Positions 7,559 through 55,705 of a stretch of 64,000 bases of DNA are shown here, piece by piece (position 1 is the first letter of the stretch; the number at the start of each line of letters is the position of its first letter). Origin of the DNA: an uncultured Clostridia bacterium (GTDB lineage: Bacteria; Bacillota; Clostridia; Lachnospirales; CAG-274); NCBI GenBank assembly GCA_947632615.1, contig CANRPW010000013.1, positions 1-64,000 of the forward strand, written 5' to 3'. The notes beneath the pieces were generated by a model that saw only the letters and a program-made list of their open reading frames with translations, was not told where the DNA came from and made no database searches. The translations under genes were made by a program, and so were the position numbers.

Positions 7559-7705
7559 TTCGCTAATAAAAATCATTACAAATGATTTTTTTAGGCGAAC
7601 CGTCGGGGCTGAGGAAACACCGTGAACAAGGGGCAAATGACAGCAAGCTGTCATTTGCCCCTTGTTCACGGTGTTTCCTCAGCCCCTAGCCGCAGTCTTG
7701 TCGGC
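7559..7705. repeat. Long-palindrome element 1 (40-bp perfect arms)
   Basis: A small imperfect hairpin (about 7559-7600) is followed by a perfect palindrome with arms 7605-7644 and 7647-7686 and only a two-base AA loop. The right flank reads agccgcagtcttgtcggct, matching the flank of the other elements (GCAG...GTCGGCT). It lies between two convergent genes. The inner part (aaatgacagc / gctgtcattt) resembles a bidirectional terminator core. No coding potential. Confidence 0.85.
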
Positions 7706-15134: not shown

Positions 15135-15284
15135 TTGCCCCACCTTACGTGCCGTCGTAAAGACGGCAACTACAGGCGGATCCGCAGGGGGCAGGGCAAG
15201 ACAAAAAAAGACAGCGACTTCATCCGAAGTCGCTGTCTTTTTTTGTCTTGCCCTGCCCCCTGCTAAAGCTGGTCGGTTACCCGG
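15135..15284. repeat. Long-palindrome element 2 (38-bp perfect arms)
   Basis: Starts ttgccccacc, then a small hairpin (gccgtc / gacggc, 15151-15168), then a perfect palindrome with arms 15184-15221 and 15226-15263 around an ATCC loop, and ends with gctggtcggtt. The inner 19 bp of each arm form a stem flanked by an A7 and a T7 tract, that is, a textbook bidirectional terminator enclosed in GC-rich outer arms. It lies between convergent thlA and the ANTAR gene and touches the ANTAR stop codon. Confidence 0.88.
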
Positions 15285-17529: not shown

Positions 17530-17735
17530 TGTCTGCGACCTGCCTGCGGCGCCGACCGCCGAGGGCGAGGGGGAGCGCACTGCGAGGGGAGCAAAGCCAA
17601 AAGCAGCCCTTGGGCTGCTTTTGGCTTTGCTCCCCTCGCAGTGCGCTCCCCCTCGCCCTCGGCCCCACGGCTCCGCCTTCCGACCCCGACTCATACCGTC
17701 AAAGACGGTATGAGTCGGGGCGGGAGGTGGGGCAG
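17530..17735. repeat. Long-palindrome element 3 (52-bp perfect arms)
   Basis: The longest palindrome of the window: arms 17558-17609 and 17612-17663 are perfect complements with a TT loop. On the minus strand the order is tgccccacc, a small hairpin with 17-bp perfect stem (17684-17720, AAA loop), gtggggc, the long palindrome, then ggtcggcgccgcaggcaggtcg. It follows the stop of the lipoprotein gene and precedes the glnA promoter. The innermost part (aaaagcagccc / gggctgctttt) looks like a terminator core. No coding content. Confidence 0.88.
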
Positions 17736-44902: not shown

Positions 44903-44933
44903 CTCCCGAAAATTATCGGGAGCTTTTTCTTTT
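44903..44933. terminator. Bidirectional terminator containing the acyltransferase stop codon
   Basis: CTCCCGA / TCGGGAG stem with T-tracts in both directions. The TAA stop of the acyltransferase gene lies in the hairpin loop. Confidence 0.85.
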
Positions 44934-46064
44934 TTTCTTATTCTTAGGCTTACGCCTGCGCTTTTCACCCTTATTTTGCGGAACATCCTGAAAAGCATCT
45001 ATAAGGGGTATGAGTGTAAAGCGTTCTGCAAGCTTCCTTAAGGTTTCCGTTGTCAGTCCCAAAATGAAAACCAAGGAAACGCCGCCAATTATCCACAGTA
45101 TGAAGTATGGCGACTCATAGTGTTTTATAATATCCGTAAAATGCTGCCAATAATATCTTTGCAGCTCTCCGTCATGGAACATATATATGCCAAGAGTGCA
45201 GGAAGCCACAAAATTAACAATTCGCAGATAGGGAACATTTATATACTTAAATATCAACAGCATAAGCACGCTTATGGAAATTACCGGCATAGTGTTGGGA
45301 GGCCAGAAATACACCTGTGAAAGTGTCTTCCATGGGAATATCCTATATTCCGTACCTATTATAAAGAATATAAGAAGTGCCCATACGGCTGCCAAGCCTA
45401 TAAGACATCTTTTAAGGTTTTTAAAATACGGCACTCCGTAAAGTCTTATATATGCGCCTATAAGATATACAACTATAAGCCACAAATATCTGTTGTAATA
45501 AGGTATAGACTCGGCTTTTCCGTTCTTATATATCATACATAAAATAAAAGTAGGGAGTATAGACCATATAAGAAGCTGTGAAATTATCAGCGACGTAAAT
45601 TCCTTTTTAGAAAGAACCTCTATAAGCTTTTTGAGGTAAGGCGTTATTATATATATCAGAAAATATGCCGTACAGAACCAGAATAAGTTTCTGTATACGG
45701 GAAACAGCCAATCCGAAAACTTCCAATTGCTTAGAGGCACCAAGCCATAATAGGCTCTGAGCAGTTTATTTAAAATAATATAAAATTGTACGGAGCATAC
45801 ATACAATATTGCCTTTTTCCATTTGAATTTAGTTTCCGGCGCAAAATATCCGCTTATAAGCACAAAGCAGTCTACGCCTATTTCGCCGAAGTGAGTTATA
45901 ATATCACAGATTATACGGTTTATAACTATAGCGCTGCTGCCCCCCCCCAGTGTAGATATGTCGGGGGTTAAGTCTATGCCCGATTTATAAACATTATGGA
46001 AAATTAATATCATAACAATAGATACTATTCTTAATATTTCAAAATTACTTTTTCTTTGTTGCAT
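44913..46064 (-). CDS. Acyltransferase family 3 membrane protein (OafA/WecH-like)
   Basis: 383 residues, about ten membrane segments, beginning SNFEILRIVSIVMILIFHN with the motif Arg and catalytic His of acyltransferase 3 proteins. These O-acetylate surface glycans. The C-terminus is a very basic tail (KRRRKPKNKKKRKSSR), probably cytoplasmic. Codons for residues 38-40 lie in a run of nine G (45940-45948), so length changes would shift the frame early in the protein. Ends inside a terminator hairpin. Confidence 0.85.
   Translation of the reverse strand: MQQRKSNFEILRIVSIVMILIFHNVYKSGIDLTPDISTLGGGSSAIVINRIICDIITHFGEIGVDCFVLISGYFAPETKFKWKKAILYVCSVQFYIILNKLLRAYYGLVPLSNWKFSDWLFPVYRNLFWFCTAYFLIYIITPYLKKLIEVLSKKEFTSLIISQLLIWSILPTFILCMIYKNGKAESIPYYNRYLWLIVVYLIGAYIRLYGVPYFKNLKRCLIGLAAVWALLIFFIIGTEYRIFPWKTLSQVYFWPPNTMPVISISVLMLLIFKYINVPYLRIVNFVASCTLGIYMFHDGELQRYYWQHFTDIIKHYESPYFILWIIGGVSLVFILGLTTETLRKLAERFTLIPLIDAFQDVPQNKGEKRRRKPKNKKKRKSSR
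45940..45948 (-). repeat. G9 homopolymer in the acyltransferase coding strand
   Basis: Nine consecutive C on the plus strand, encoding part of STLGGGSS near residue 39. Long enough for slipped-strand mispairing. Confidence 0.85.
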
Positions 46065-46090: not shown

Positions 46091-46981
46091 TTACAGAACA
46101 TACATAAACAGCAGTACGTAAACTGCATATATTATCATCAAGAGTATAAGTCCCTTGCTTTTAAATAGGGTTTCTATAGGGTCGCCGTCCACTTCCTTCT
46201 CTCCGTACAAAAGAAGGTTGTATTTCATAATTATAAGAAGTACAATAGGCACGGTGTAAATTAGAGCCGTAGACTTTTCCATAGCCCAGAATGAATAAAA
46301 GGCAATACCAAGCCCCAGGCAGAGATACATATGGCTTTCAAGATATTGAAGGTCATATTTATAAAGCACGGGACGGGTGACCTTAGCTTCTGCGCTGTCC
46401 TCTCGGGCAGCACGATATTTTACATATTCTCCCCTGCGCTTTCCTGCTCCTAAATAGAAGGATATGCAAAGGGTAGTAAGGAAGAGCCAAGCAGAAACGG
46501 GTATGCCTGACACAAAACCGCCGTACATAATGCGTATGGGGTAGCCTGCCCCAAGTATGGCTATATCAAACACGGGAACATTTTTAAGCCCCTTGCTGTA
46601 GGCTATATTGATAAGTATATAGACTATGGCGCAAAGCCATGTGTAAATATCAGCCTTAATAAATATGAGTATTGCTGCCGAAACAACAAGCAGCGCTCCG
46701 CCAAGAACAACAGCATTTAAAACAGGCACTCTGCCCGAAGCTATAGGGCGGTTTTTCTTTGTAGGGTGTGCTCTGTCGTTTTTCACATCGCAGAGGTCGT
46801 TAAAAATATATACAAAGGAGCAAATAAAGCAAAACGCAGCAAATGCCAAAAGAGTGGTAATTATCAGGCTCTTTCCGCTTCCTCCGTTTTCCTTAAGTCT
46901 TTCAGAAAAAAACAAAGGGAAAAATATAAGAAGATTTTTAATATAATGTTTGATACGCATAAGGCGTAAATAATGCTTCAT
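46091..46981 (-). CDS. UbiA-family prenyltransferase (decaprenyl-phosphate phosphoribosyltransferase-like)
   Basis: 296 residues with eight or nine membrane helices. The Asp-rich motif NDLCDVKNDRAHPTKKNRP (about 64-82) and the second-half segment FDIAILGAGYPIRIMYGG match the UbiA branch that transfers phosphoribose to polyprenyl phosphate. In mycobacteria this starts decaprenyl-phosphoryl-arabinose synthesis; in Clostridia it is found with envelope glycan genes, as here. Promoter at 47032-47060. Part of its sequence recurs as an insertion in the neighbouring membrane protein gene. Confidence 0.85.
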   Translation of the reverse strand: MKHYLRLMRIKHYIKNLLIFFPLFFSERLKENGGSGKSLIITTLLAFAAFCFICSFVYIFNDLCDVKNDRAHPTKKNRPIASGRVPVLNAVVLGGALLVVSAAILIFIKADIYTWLCAIVYILINIAYSKGLKNVPVFDIAILGAGYPIRIMYGGFVSGIPVSAWLFLTTLCISFYLGAGKRRGEYVKYRAAREDSAEAKVTRPVLYKYDLQYLESHMYLCLGLGIAFYSFWAMEKSTALIYTVPIVLLIIMKYNLLLYGEKEVDGDPIETLFKSKGLILLMIIYAVYVLLFMYVL

Positions 46982-47127: not shown

Positions 47128-48795
47128 TCAGCTTAAGGCATTTATAAACGCCGCAATATCAAACATTGCCGCAATATTTATAAAAAGCATAGAGCAAAGC
47201 AAAACCGTATAAATTGGTTTTGGTTTCATATTAAAAAGCCTCATAAGAGCATCCGCCCCGAATTTGAAAAGAGGTATGACAGCCCAGGAAAAATACAAGC
47301 CGAAAAGAGGGCTTTCATGAGGCGACCAGCCAAGTATAACAACAAATATGAATGAAAAGACTAACCACGCTGCGCATATTCTGAAAAATTTGTACTGTAT
47401 TTTATCAATCACTGACACAAAGCTGCCGTGCATAATGCGTATGGGATACCCCCCCCTAAGAATGACGCCCACAAGTATTATGAGTATGATAATAATGCTG
47501 AGCGCGCTTATGCCATTCATCATATCCGTCCATCTGTATCTTCCGTTTGTCACGCCGGATGACAGGGCAAAGAAGCAATTATTTATCATTTTGGTATAAG
47601 AAGATAATTTTTCAACAAAGGTATATTTTACGGCAGGCGCAAATTGGCTTTTCATTTTTCCCGCAGAGCTGATTACCTCTGTTAATACAAGCATACGGGC
47701 TCTGCCAAGAGTGACAAGCATTATCACTGCCGTGCAGATTATCTTCCCGATCTTTTTGATCTTCTCTATGGGCTTTTCCGATGTAAACAGCTCAAGTACC
47801 CCAAGAGCTGCACTGGTGGATATGAAGGATGACATTACAACATAAGGTATTGCCGATTTATTTGGCTTATTAAGCATAATGTACACATACAGCACAGAGA
47901 AAAATACGCAAAGGGGATATTTTTCAAACATCATTCCAAACTGTAAAAACTGGAACGAGCATATATAGAGAAGAAAAACAACATTGCTTTTTGTTATTTT
48001 CTTAAGCATTACACCCGTAACAAGCATAGCCTGTACATTCAGAGCCTGAAAAAATATAGCTGTCAGAGCAGGCACTAAGTTTTCGGGAGCAAATATAATA
48101 AGAAGCCTGTTTACAATAGCCCATATAGGAAACAGAAATGGTGTGGGGCACACATGCCTGATATCATAATAGCTGGGATTTTTTATTATAGTGCCGAGGA
48201 CAAATCTGGAATCCATAGAATATACCGCATCAAACTGAGTATACCAATACTCATTTTTAAGGTAAGTGATGAATATAACAGCCGTCATTAATAAGCTGAC
48301 TGCAAAATAAAACCTTTTCTCATTCTCACTCAAGTCGGAAAAAAGCTCTTTAAAAAACAGTATGGCATTTTTTATCAACCATATGCCTATAAAAAACATT
48401 GCTATAGCCGAAAAAAGCCAGAAGCCCAAGGAAAATATATTAAACGGCAGGTTTACCTGCAAAACCTTGGCAAAGACTAATCCTCGTGACTCATAGCCCT
48501 GAAATGCTATAAGAACAGCCCCGATAGCAACAAGGAAAGAGATGCCTTGATTTCTTTTTATAAAGTCAAACACTTCTTCTTCCTTAAACATAATTGCTAT
48601 TACCGCTCCTGTAAGAGCAACCGCTGCGGTAATTATCATAAAAGTCGCTGTATAATCAAATCTGATTATCTGATGTATGGAAAACATAACAAACGAAAGA
48701 CAAAATAATATTCTTAAGATCCATATGTAAATAAGACCGGATTGTATTTTCACGGTTTCCGCTGTATTCTTTTTATTTTCATTTGATTTACACAT
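47128..48795 (-). CDS. Large polytopic membrane protein, paralogue 1
   Basis: 555 residues from ATG 48795, after AGGAGGACAAGGGAA. About 13-14 membrane helices; after helix 6 or so an outside loop has DAVYSMDSRFVLGTIIKN and HVCPTPFLFPIWA, recalling the acidic loop of membrane glycosyltransferases, but I recognise no named family. Highly similar to the next gene (49088-50692) over the whole length including promoter and terminator. It differs by a 54-bp in-frame insertion encoding about GGYPIRIMHGSFVS and containing a G8 tract. Confidence 0.75.
   Translation of the reverse strand: MCKSNENKKNTAETVKIQSGLIYIWILRILFCLSFVMFSIHQIIRFDYTATFMIITAAVALTGAVIAIMFKEEEVFDFIKRNQGISFLVAIGAVLIAFQGYESRGLVFAKVLQVNLPFNIFSLGFWLFSAIAMFFIGIWLIKNAILFFKELFSDLSENEKRFYFAVSLLMTAVIFITYLKNEYWYTQFDAVYSMDSRFVLGTIIKNPSYYDIRHVCPTPFLFPIWAIVNRLLIIFAPENLVPALTAIFFQALNVQAMLVTGVMLKKITKSNVVFLLYICSFQFLQFGMMFEKYPLCVFFSVLYVYIMLNKPNKSAIPYVVMSSFISTSAALGVLELFTSEKPIEKIKKIGKIICTAVIMLVTLGRARMLVLTEVISSAGKMKSQFAPAVKYTFVEKLSSYTKMINNCFFALSSGVTNGRYRWTDMMNGISALSIIIILIILVGVILRGGYPIRIMHGSFVSVIDKIQYKFFRICAAWLVFSFIFVVILGWSPHESPLFGLYFSWAVIPLFKFGADALMRLFNMKPKPIYTVLLCSMLFINIAAMFDIAAFINALS
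47414..47467 (-). other. 54-bp in-frame insertion resembling ubiA-type gene sequence
   Basis: Absent from the paralogue at 49088-50692, where the flanking bases are continuous (near 49373). The 54 bp align with 46509-46561 inside the UbiA-family gene with roughly nine mismatches, in the same strand and reading frame (GGYPIRIMHGSFVS against AGYPIRIMYGGFVS). Confidence 0.8.
47449..47456 (-). repeat. G8 homopolymer in the insertion of paralogue 1
   Basis: Eight C on the plus strand; the corresponding site in the ubiA-type gene is interrupted (gcctgcccc). Confidence 0.8.
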
Positions 48796-48843
48796 TTCCC
48801 TTGTCCTCCTTTTGCGCAAACACACATGGGAATAATTTTTTGT

Positions 48844-49087: not shown

Positions 49088-50692
49088 TCAGCTTAAGGTA
49101 TTTATAAACGCCGCAATATCAAACATTGCCGCAATATTTATAAAAAGCATAGAGCAAAGCAAAACCGTATAAATTGGTTTTGGTTTCATATTAAAAAGCT
49201 TCATAAGAGCATCCGCCCCAAATTTGAAAAGAGGTATGACAGCCCAGGAAAAATATAAGCCGAAAAGAGGACTTTCATAAGGCAGCCAGCCAAGTATAAC
49301 AACAAATATGAATGAAAAGACTAACCACGCTGCGCATATTCTGAAAAATTTGTCCTTTATTTTAACTATCACTCCCACAAGTATTATGAGTATGATAATA
49401 ATGCTGAGCGCACTAAAGCCATTCATCATATCCGTCCATATATATCTTCCGTCCAACACGCAGGATGACAGGGCAAAGAAGCAATTTTTTATCATTTTGG
49501 TATAAGAAGATAATTTTTCAACAAAGGTAAAGCTTACGACAGATATAAATTGGTTTTTCATGTCTCCCGCATAACCGAATACCTCTGTTAATACAAGCAT
49601 ACGGGCTCTGCCAAGAGTGACAAGCATTATCACTGCCGTGCAGATTATCTTCCCGATTTTTTTGATCTTCTCTATGGGCTTTTCCGATGTAAACAGCTCA
49701 AGTACGCCAAGAACTGCACTGGTAGATATGAAGGACGACATTACAACATAAGGTATTGCCGATTTATTTGGCTTATTAAGCATAATGTATACATACAGCA
49801 CAGAGAAAAATACGCAAAGAGGATATTTTTCAAACGACATTCCATACTGTATGAAATGGAACGAGCATATATAGAGAAGAAAAACAACATTACTTTTTGT
49901 TATTTTCTTAAGCATTACACCCGTAACAAGCATAGCCTGTACATTCAGAGCCTGAAAAAATATGGCTGTCAGCGCAGGCACTAAGTTTTCGGGAGCAAAT
50001 ATAATAAGGAGTCTGTTTACAATAGCCCATACGGGAAACAGAAATGGCGTGGGGCACACATGCCTGATATCATAATAGTCGGGATTTTTTATCATGGTGT
50101 CGAGGACAAAGCTGGAATCCATAGAATATACCACATCATACTGAGTATACCAATGCTCGTTTTTAAGGTAAGTGATAAATATAACAGCCGTCATTAATAA
50201 GCTGACTGCAAAATAAAACCTTTTCTCATTTTCACTCAAGTCGGAAAAAAGCTCTTTAAAAAACAGTATGGCATTTTTTATCACCCATATACCTATAAAA
50301 AATATTGCTATAGCCGAAAAAAGCCAAAATCTCAAAGCAAATATATTAAACGGCAGGTCTAACTGAAAAACCTGGGCAAAGACTAATCCTCGGGTTTCAT
50401 AGCCCTGAAATGCTATAAGAACAGCCCCGATGGCAACAAGAAAAGAGATGCCTTGATTTCTTTTTATAAAGTCAAGCACTTCTTCTTCCTTAAACATAAT
50501 TGCTATTACCGCTCCTGTAAGAGCAAATGCTGCGGTAATTATAATAAAAGGCGCTGTATAATCCATGAACATCTGATGTAAAGAAAATATAACAAGCGAA
50601 AGGCAAAACAATACTCTTAATATCCATCTGTAAATAGTTTGAGATTGTATTTTCATAGTTTCCGCTGTATTCTTTTCATTTGATTTGCCCAT
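49088..50692 (-). CDS. Large polytopic membrane protein, paralogue 2
   Basis: 534 residues from ATG 50692 after AGGAGGACAAGGGAA, same start context as paralogue 1. Nearly identical to paralogue 1 in long stretches (for example NVVFLLYICSF, EKYPLCVFFSVLYVYIMLN), with most changes in the N-terminal helix, around DMKNQFISVVSF and near the C-terminal loop. It lacks the 54-bp insertion, so it probably represents the ancestral form. Likely envelope-related by context; activity unknown. Confidence 0.75.
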   Translation of the reverse strand: MGKSNEKNTAETMKIQSQTIYRWILRVLFCLSLVIFSLHQMFMDYTAPFIIITAAFALTGAVIAIMFKEEEVLDFIKRNQGISFLVAIGAVLIAFQGYETRGLVFAQVFQLDLPFNIFALRFWLFSAIAIFFIGIWVIKNAILFFKELFSDLSENEKRFYFAVSLLMTAVIFITYLKNEHWYTQYDVVYSMDSSFVLDTMIKNPDYYDIRHVCPTPFLFPVWAIVNRLLIIFAPENLVPALTAIFFQALNVQAMLVTGVMLKKITKSNVVFLLYICSFHFIQYGMSFEKYPLCVFFSVLYVYIMLNKPNKSAIPYVVMSSFISTSAVLGVLELFTSEKPIEKIKKIGKIICTAVIMLVTLGRARMLVLTEVFGYAGDMKNQFISVVSFTFVEKLSSYTKMIKNCFFALSSCVLDGRYIWTDMMNGFSALSIIIILIILVGVIVKIKDKFFRICAAWLVFSFIFVVILGWLPYESPLFGLYFSWAVIPLFKFGADALMKLFNMKPKPIYTVLLCSMLFINIAAMFDIAAFINTLS

Positions 50693-50741
50693 TTCCCTTG
50701 TCCTCCTTTTGCTCAAACACACATGGAAATAATTTCTTTGC

Positions 50742-55512: not shown

Positions 55513-55705
55513 TGTGCCGCACCACCCTTCCTTCGGCTATCGTCCCTCCGGGACGATAGCCGAAAGAAGGGCGGGCGGGTGGGGGCGGCGGAGGGGCGTG
55601 GAGGGCGAACAGAAAAAGCGTGGGGACATCAAGATGTCCCCACGCTTTTTCTGTTCGCCCTCCACGCCCCTCCGCCGCCTGAACCGCAGGCTGGTCGGCT
55701 AAAGG
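55513..55705. repeat. Long-palindrome element 4 (47-bp perfect arms)
   Basis: Order on the plus strand: gtgccgcaccaccc, a 15-bp perfect hairpin (55532-55546 / 55550-55564, TCC loop), gggcgggtgggg, the long palindrome with arms 55584-55630 and 55633-55679 around an AA loop, then gaaccgcaggctggtcggct. The central 18 bp of each arm plus an A5/T5 tract look like a terminator core. It stands after the anti-sigma gene stop (minus strand) and before the tkt start region. Confidence 0.88.

Follow-up and report, generated by a model that had tools for sequence, protein, structure and literature searches.

A short in-frame insertion in a clostridial membrane-protein gene matches the neighbouring ubiA gene and carries a poly-G tract

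Introduction

How can a gene acquire a short run of codons that resembles part of an unrelated neighbouring gene? The question arises in the window, the whole stretch of 64,000 nucleotides from an uncultured Clostridia bacterium that was analysed here. The bacterium is of a gut type and Lachnospirales-like; its Tgt leads only to Lachnospiraceae-like Clostridia, with identities of up to 78%. In this stretch, a membrane-protein gene (p1) has 18 codons which its paralogue (p2) lacks and which resemble a segment of a ubiA gene. The original prediction considered either an ectopic, homology-poor transfer between unrelated genes or a small genomic repeat with in-frame insertion. The genes lie on the minus strand in the order p2, p1, ubiA, and acyltransferase. 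The features are as follows:

p2: 49088-50698, minus strand; p1 paralogue without the insert.
p1: 47128-48801, minus strand; open reading frame for a polytopic membrane protein of unknown family, analysed as a frame of 557 aa with a provisional start codon.
Insert in p1: 47412-47464 (18 codons, about 47412-47467), minus strand; LRGGYPIRIMHGSFVSVI; 44/53 to ubiA; missing from p2, L006, L007, L008, and L272.
G8 tract: 47449-47456, minus strand; coding strand AGGGGGGGGTATCCC; at the 5' end of the insert.
ubiA: 46091-46981, minus strand; UbiA-family prenyltransferase, decaprenyl-phosphate phosphoribosyltransferase-like (PF01040).
Donor-like segment in ubiA: 46507-46559, minus strand; GAGYPIRIMYGGFVSG; five other UbiA genes have a homologous motif.
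Acyltransferase: 44913-46064, minus strand; Acyl_transf_3 membrane protein (PF01757) with a G9 tract at residue 38.
G9 tract: 45940-45948, minus strand; in the acyltransferase gene, 1.5 kb from the insert.

Results

The insert and its match in ubiA

Over their shared codons, p1 and p2 are 92.7% identical at the nucleotide level (dN 0.060, dS 0.145). The difference in their lengths comes from 18 extra codons in p1, which the alignment shows as a single in-frame gap in agreement with the prediction, and from gaps of 1-2 codons near the start. The edges of the large gap are ambiguous by ~10 bp, with a GTsATwsTTA-like sequence on both sides in the alignment of p1 and p2.

By BLAST, 47412-47464 is identical to 46507-46559 at 44 of 53 bp (genome-wide E 3e-9). 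Both segments lie on the minus strand in codon phase 0, and they have the CTGACAC edge in common (47412-47418 in p1, 46507-46513 in ubiA), as had been noted at the outset. The identity of about 83% claimed there is correct as an average only, as it amounts to 90% over the 41 bp outside the block around the G tract and to 7/12 within this block. Five of the nine mismatches fall in these 12 bp (Fisher p 0.02, scan p 0.26). As the scan p of 0.26 is not significant, we did not take this clustering as evidence that the tract block arose separately.

The best 53-mer match of ubiA with codon-shuffled p1 was 29-34/53, and with p2 it was 31. As these controls reach only 29-34/53, a match by chance is excluded. 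The codons at CTT, P-I-R-I-M, G, and F-V-S are identical in the insert and ubiA; hence, the identity exists at the DNA level and does not reflect protein convergence. When the p1 and UbiA proteins were compared by BLASTP, a 19-residue match was the only significant one.

Searches of p1 against Pfam and NCBIfam gave 0 matches, and a scan of genome_contigs with p1 gave none either. In a low-confidence model of p1, whose pLDDT of 45 ruled out a fold search, the insert is placed between the predicted helices 424-450 and 461-489. A PDB sequence search with the p1 family returned only two weak matches, both to small photosystem subunits, which were rejected as not meaningful. The ubiA product matched NF008978 (E 9.5e-54) with 182.5 bits, below the curated equivalog cut-off of 207, and it passed the UbiA superfamily cut-off. 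The pairing of p1 and ubiA is conserved in three relatives, which suggests that p1 may take part in the chemistry of polyprenyl-phosphate sugars or envelope glycans.

The G8 tract and its class

The G8 tract that had been noticed in the insert is present and is a member of a distinct tract class. The left end of the insert consists of G8 followed by TAT, which is missing from ubiA (GGGGCAGGCTAC): ubiA reads CTT GGG GCA GGC TAC CCC where the insert reads CTT AGG GGG GGG TAT CCC. Slippage by one G in p1 would give 463 aa (G7) or 465 aa (G9), compared with 557 aa, and remove the last helices predicted by the low-confidence model. Judging from the tract class, p1 may be phase variable at present.

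The genome contains 31 G8-G10 tracts (7 G8, 19 G9, and 5 G10; for example L050, L053, L060, and L064), 2-3 of which lie at contig ends, and one extra run of 30 G at a contig end. In a 464-kb sample, shorter G runs drop steeply in number (275 G5, 12 G6, 1 G7). Extrapolation of the run lengths predicts ~0.6 tracts of exactly G8 and fewer longer ones, compared with the 31 G8-G10 tracts observed. That G9 is the commonest length points to a class of tracts that is maintained. Tracts are carried by two type III mod genes, acyltransferases, a C5 methyltransferase, a VWA surface protein, and a DUF5131-like protein, these names being assigned from sequence motifs by eye and, for the genes in the window, checked with Pfam. 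Several carriers are frameshifted at the tract.

In the relatives G005, G001, and G002, G9-G11 tracts separate TTGACA-like from TATAAT boxes (L138, L141, and L142, respectively) and are probable phase-variable promoter spacers. The porA promoter of Neisseria likewise has a poly-G tract in the spacer between its promoter boxes (PMC3639595). The tracts thus resemble the poly-G contingency loci of the Campylobacter phasome (PMC6321876) and of Neisseria porA in that G8-G10 runs occur in mod, acyltransferase, and surface genes and in promoter spacers, with several genes frameshifted. They differ in belonging to Clostridia, in a marked 3' preference for TAT in every reading frame, and in being known from sequence alone. 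We propose that this genome holds a poly-G contingency repertoire and that the family seems to use the tracts as on/off switches by slippage. In the literature searched, no paper dealt directly with phase variation by poly-G tracts in gut Clostridia, and within that scope such switching appears to be little described.

The TAT preference was counted over 48 family genomes. At 498 G8 tract ends, G8TAT occurs 104 times (21%) and TATG8 14 times (3%), counts that are partly non-independent owing to paralogous genes and to dispersed repeats in G030 and G064. The wider order shows the excess as well. It is found in different reading frames and outside genes and is thus a property at the nucleotide level; promoter -10 boxes account for some of the cases only.

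Further arrangements of G tracts and hairpins were seen along the way. In L104 (G010 C31:12000-24500), consecutive genes of one cluster carry six G8-G10 tracts, four of which have the repeated sequence G-tract TATTTTGA(T/C)AGATG. At L051, L061, L066, and L070 (G000 C16, C10, and C9), apparently intergenic hairpins are followed by a short, often GGGAC-like spacer and then by G9-G10, an arrangement that we regard as a second class of G tract. The window itself contains four nearly perfect palindromes of 80-106 bp (7605-7686, 15184-15263, 17558-17663, and 55584-55679), three of them G+C-rich, which are probably intergenic hairpin elements.

Direction, copy number, and age

The motif occurs at the same place in five other UbiA proteins (e.g., GAGYPLRVIYGGFLSG, SGYPLRIIYGGLLSD, and SGFLIRVIYGAIITD). 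At the corresponding loop of p1, the insert is missing from p2 and from the homologues in four other species (G005, G033, G008, and G113). As the motif is native in five other UbiA proteins and missing from five p1 homologues, the transfer went from ubiA to p1 and the insert is the derived state, with p2 as the only representative of the p1 allele before insertion. This supports the ectopic, homology-poor transfer between unrelated genes that had been suggested.

Neither the genome nor 47 genomes of the family yielded a third copy of the segment. We also scanned the 464-kb sample (roughly 400 ORFs) for patches common to non-homologous gene pairs at E<=1e-4. The insert was the only such coding patch, and the one further pair passing the filter was p1 and p2 themselves. 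On these searches, the insert appears to be a single and fairly old templated insertion, an isolated event with no sign of a repeat family or a mobile repeat.

Among 393 genomes of the order, no donor closer than the resident ubiA was found. The next-best is the ubiA of G005: across 181 bp around the segment it is 73% identical to the resident gene, and many of its codons disagree with those of the insert. With this gene as the outgroup, most differences fall on the branch of the insert. The 9 differences in 53 bp are a small sample and are compatible with the neutral change expected from about the time when p1 and p2 split (dS 0.145).

Beside a fructose-bisphosphate aldolase gene (L016, G000 C11:39287-39397), we noticed 37 codons that appear to be left over from the C-terminal end of a second ubiA gene.

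Origin of the insert

We consider it likely that a single insertion of ~45-53 nt templated by ubiA entered p1 and that the tract arose later within the insert. After or around the p1/p2 split, ~45-53 nt of ubiA, co-oriented and 0.85 kb from p1, would have served once as the template for a short insertion. At each end, the joining would have relied on patchy microhomology of a few bases. With p2 as a proxy for the target, GCCATACTTG in ubiA faces GTGATAGTTA in p2, a short and imperfect microhomology of 6/10 on the left and about 2 bp on the right. The route may have been a template switch during replication or repair or short-patch double illegitimate recombination. Its length of 54 bp, which preserved the frame, and its position in a loop between two predicted helices may explain why the insert survived. 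It would since have diverged by about 17%, and the Gly-Ala-Gly codons would have changed from GGGGCAGGC to AGGGGGGGG, giving p1 a tract of the slippage-switch class. Against this reading, three non-G positions all turned to G, which is beyond what ordinary drift would suggest, and the tract showed no variation in length, with one genome covered per species.

Unlikely, yet the best of the alternatives, is an origin in which the p1 loop already had a phase-variable G tract as a hotspot and only the stretch to the right of the tract was copied. Synthesis interrupted there by a break or by stalling of the fork would have continued with the G-rich, TA(C/T)CCC-containing site of ubiA as its new template. 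The probability of a tract of G>=8 in a given 54 bp by chance is about 7e-4, the identity to ubiA is 90% outside the tract block as against 7/12 inside, and the TAT that follows the tract agrees with the pattern in the family. However, neither p2 nor any outgroup has a tract there, the mismatch clustering is not significant, and the 464-kb sample, which holds four other tracts, contains no other patch shared by unrelated genes. As p2 and the outgroups have no tract at the loop, the copied Gly-Ala-Gly codons are somewhat favoured as the raw material over a pre-existing tract.

Rather improbable is a donor other than the resident ubiA, either a lost paralogue or an allele from the DNA of an incoming strain taken up by transformation, which would explain the 17% divergence. 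Only the remnant (residues 260-296) of a second ubiA seems to survive, and G005 has a full ubiA at an apparently equivalent locus. The resident ubiA, however, resembles the insert far more closely than the G005 copy does, and the divergence does not exceed the neutral expectation.

We give very little credence to an ancient segment of the membrane-protein family that p2 and others have lost, for which no support was found, as five homologues including the near-identical paralogue and those of four other species lack it and the codon identity with ubiA is at the DNA level. Equally implausible is a small mobile repeat inserting in frame, as the original prediction had also envisaged: the in-frame insertion and the shared edge would fit, but only two sites carry the sequence in the genome and one of these belongs to a conserved enzyme motif, and a dispersed repeat or mobile element was rejected because several copies would be expected.

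Discussion

Short-patch double illegitimate recombination has been described in Acinetobacter baylyi. The likeness of the proposed templated insertion in p1 to this process, or to homology-facilitated illegitimate recombination, lies in a short ectopic patch from an unrelated site, putative joins by microhomology, and a possible in-frame change. The events in A. baylyi were seen experimentally and are often replacements, whereas the p1 insert is one old natural insertion for which the mechanism can only be suggested. The literature searched held nothing directly on short-patch double illegitimate recombination; related papers are cited in PMC8116780. Template switching with microhomology-mediated templated insertion in human cancer cells (PMC8421209) is similar in its short insert, nearby source, and little homology at the junctions. 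The case of p1 differs in being bacterial and in being read from one genome of the species.

It is doubtful, though conceivable, that G8-G10 followed by TAT forms a slippage switch throughout this Lachnospirales-like family whose tracts are also break-prone seeds, so that a fork stalled at the p1 tract picked up ubiA. If this were true, contingency tracts would generate new protein segments besides switching genes on and off.

The movement of short coding segments without homology is best known from laboratory selections. The insert in p1 is a clean, polarised natural case of such a segment moving between unrelated genes. The poly-G repertoire with its TAT signature in a large Clostridia family may matter more than the insert itself.
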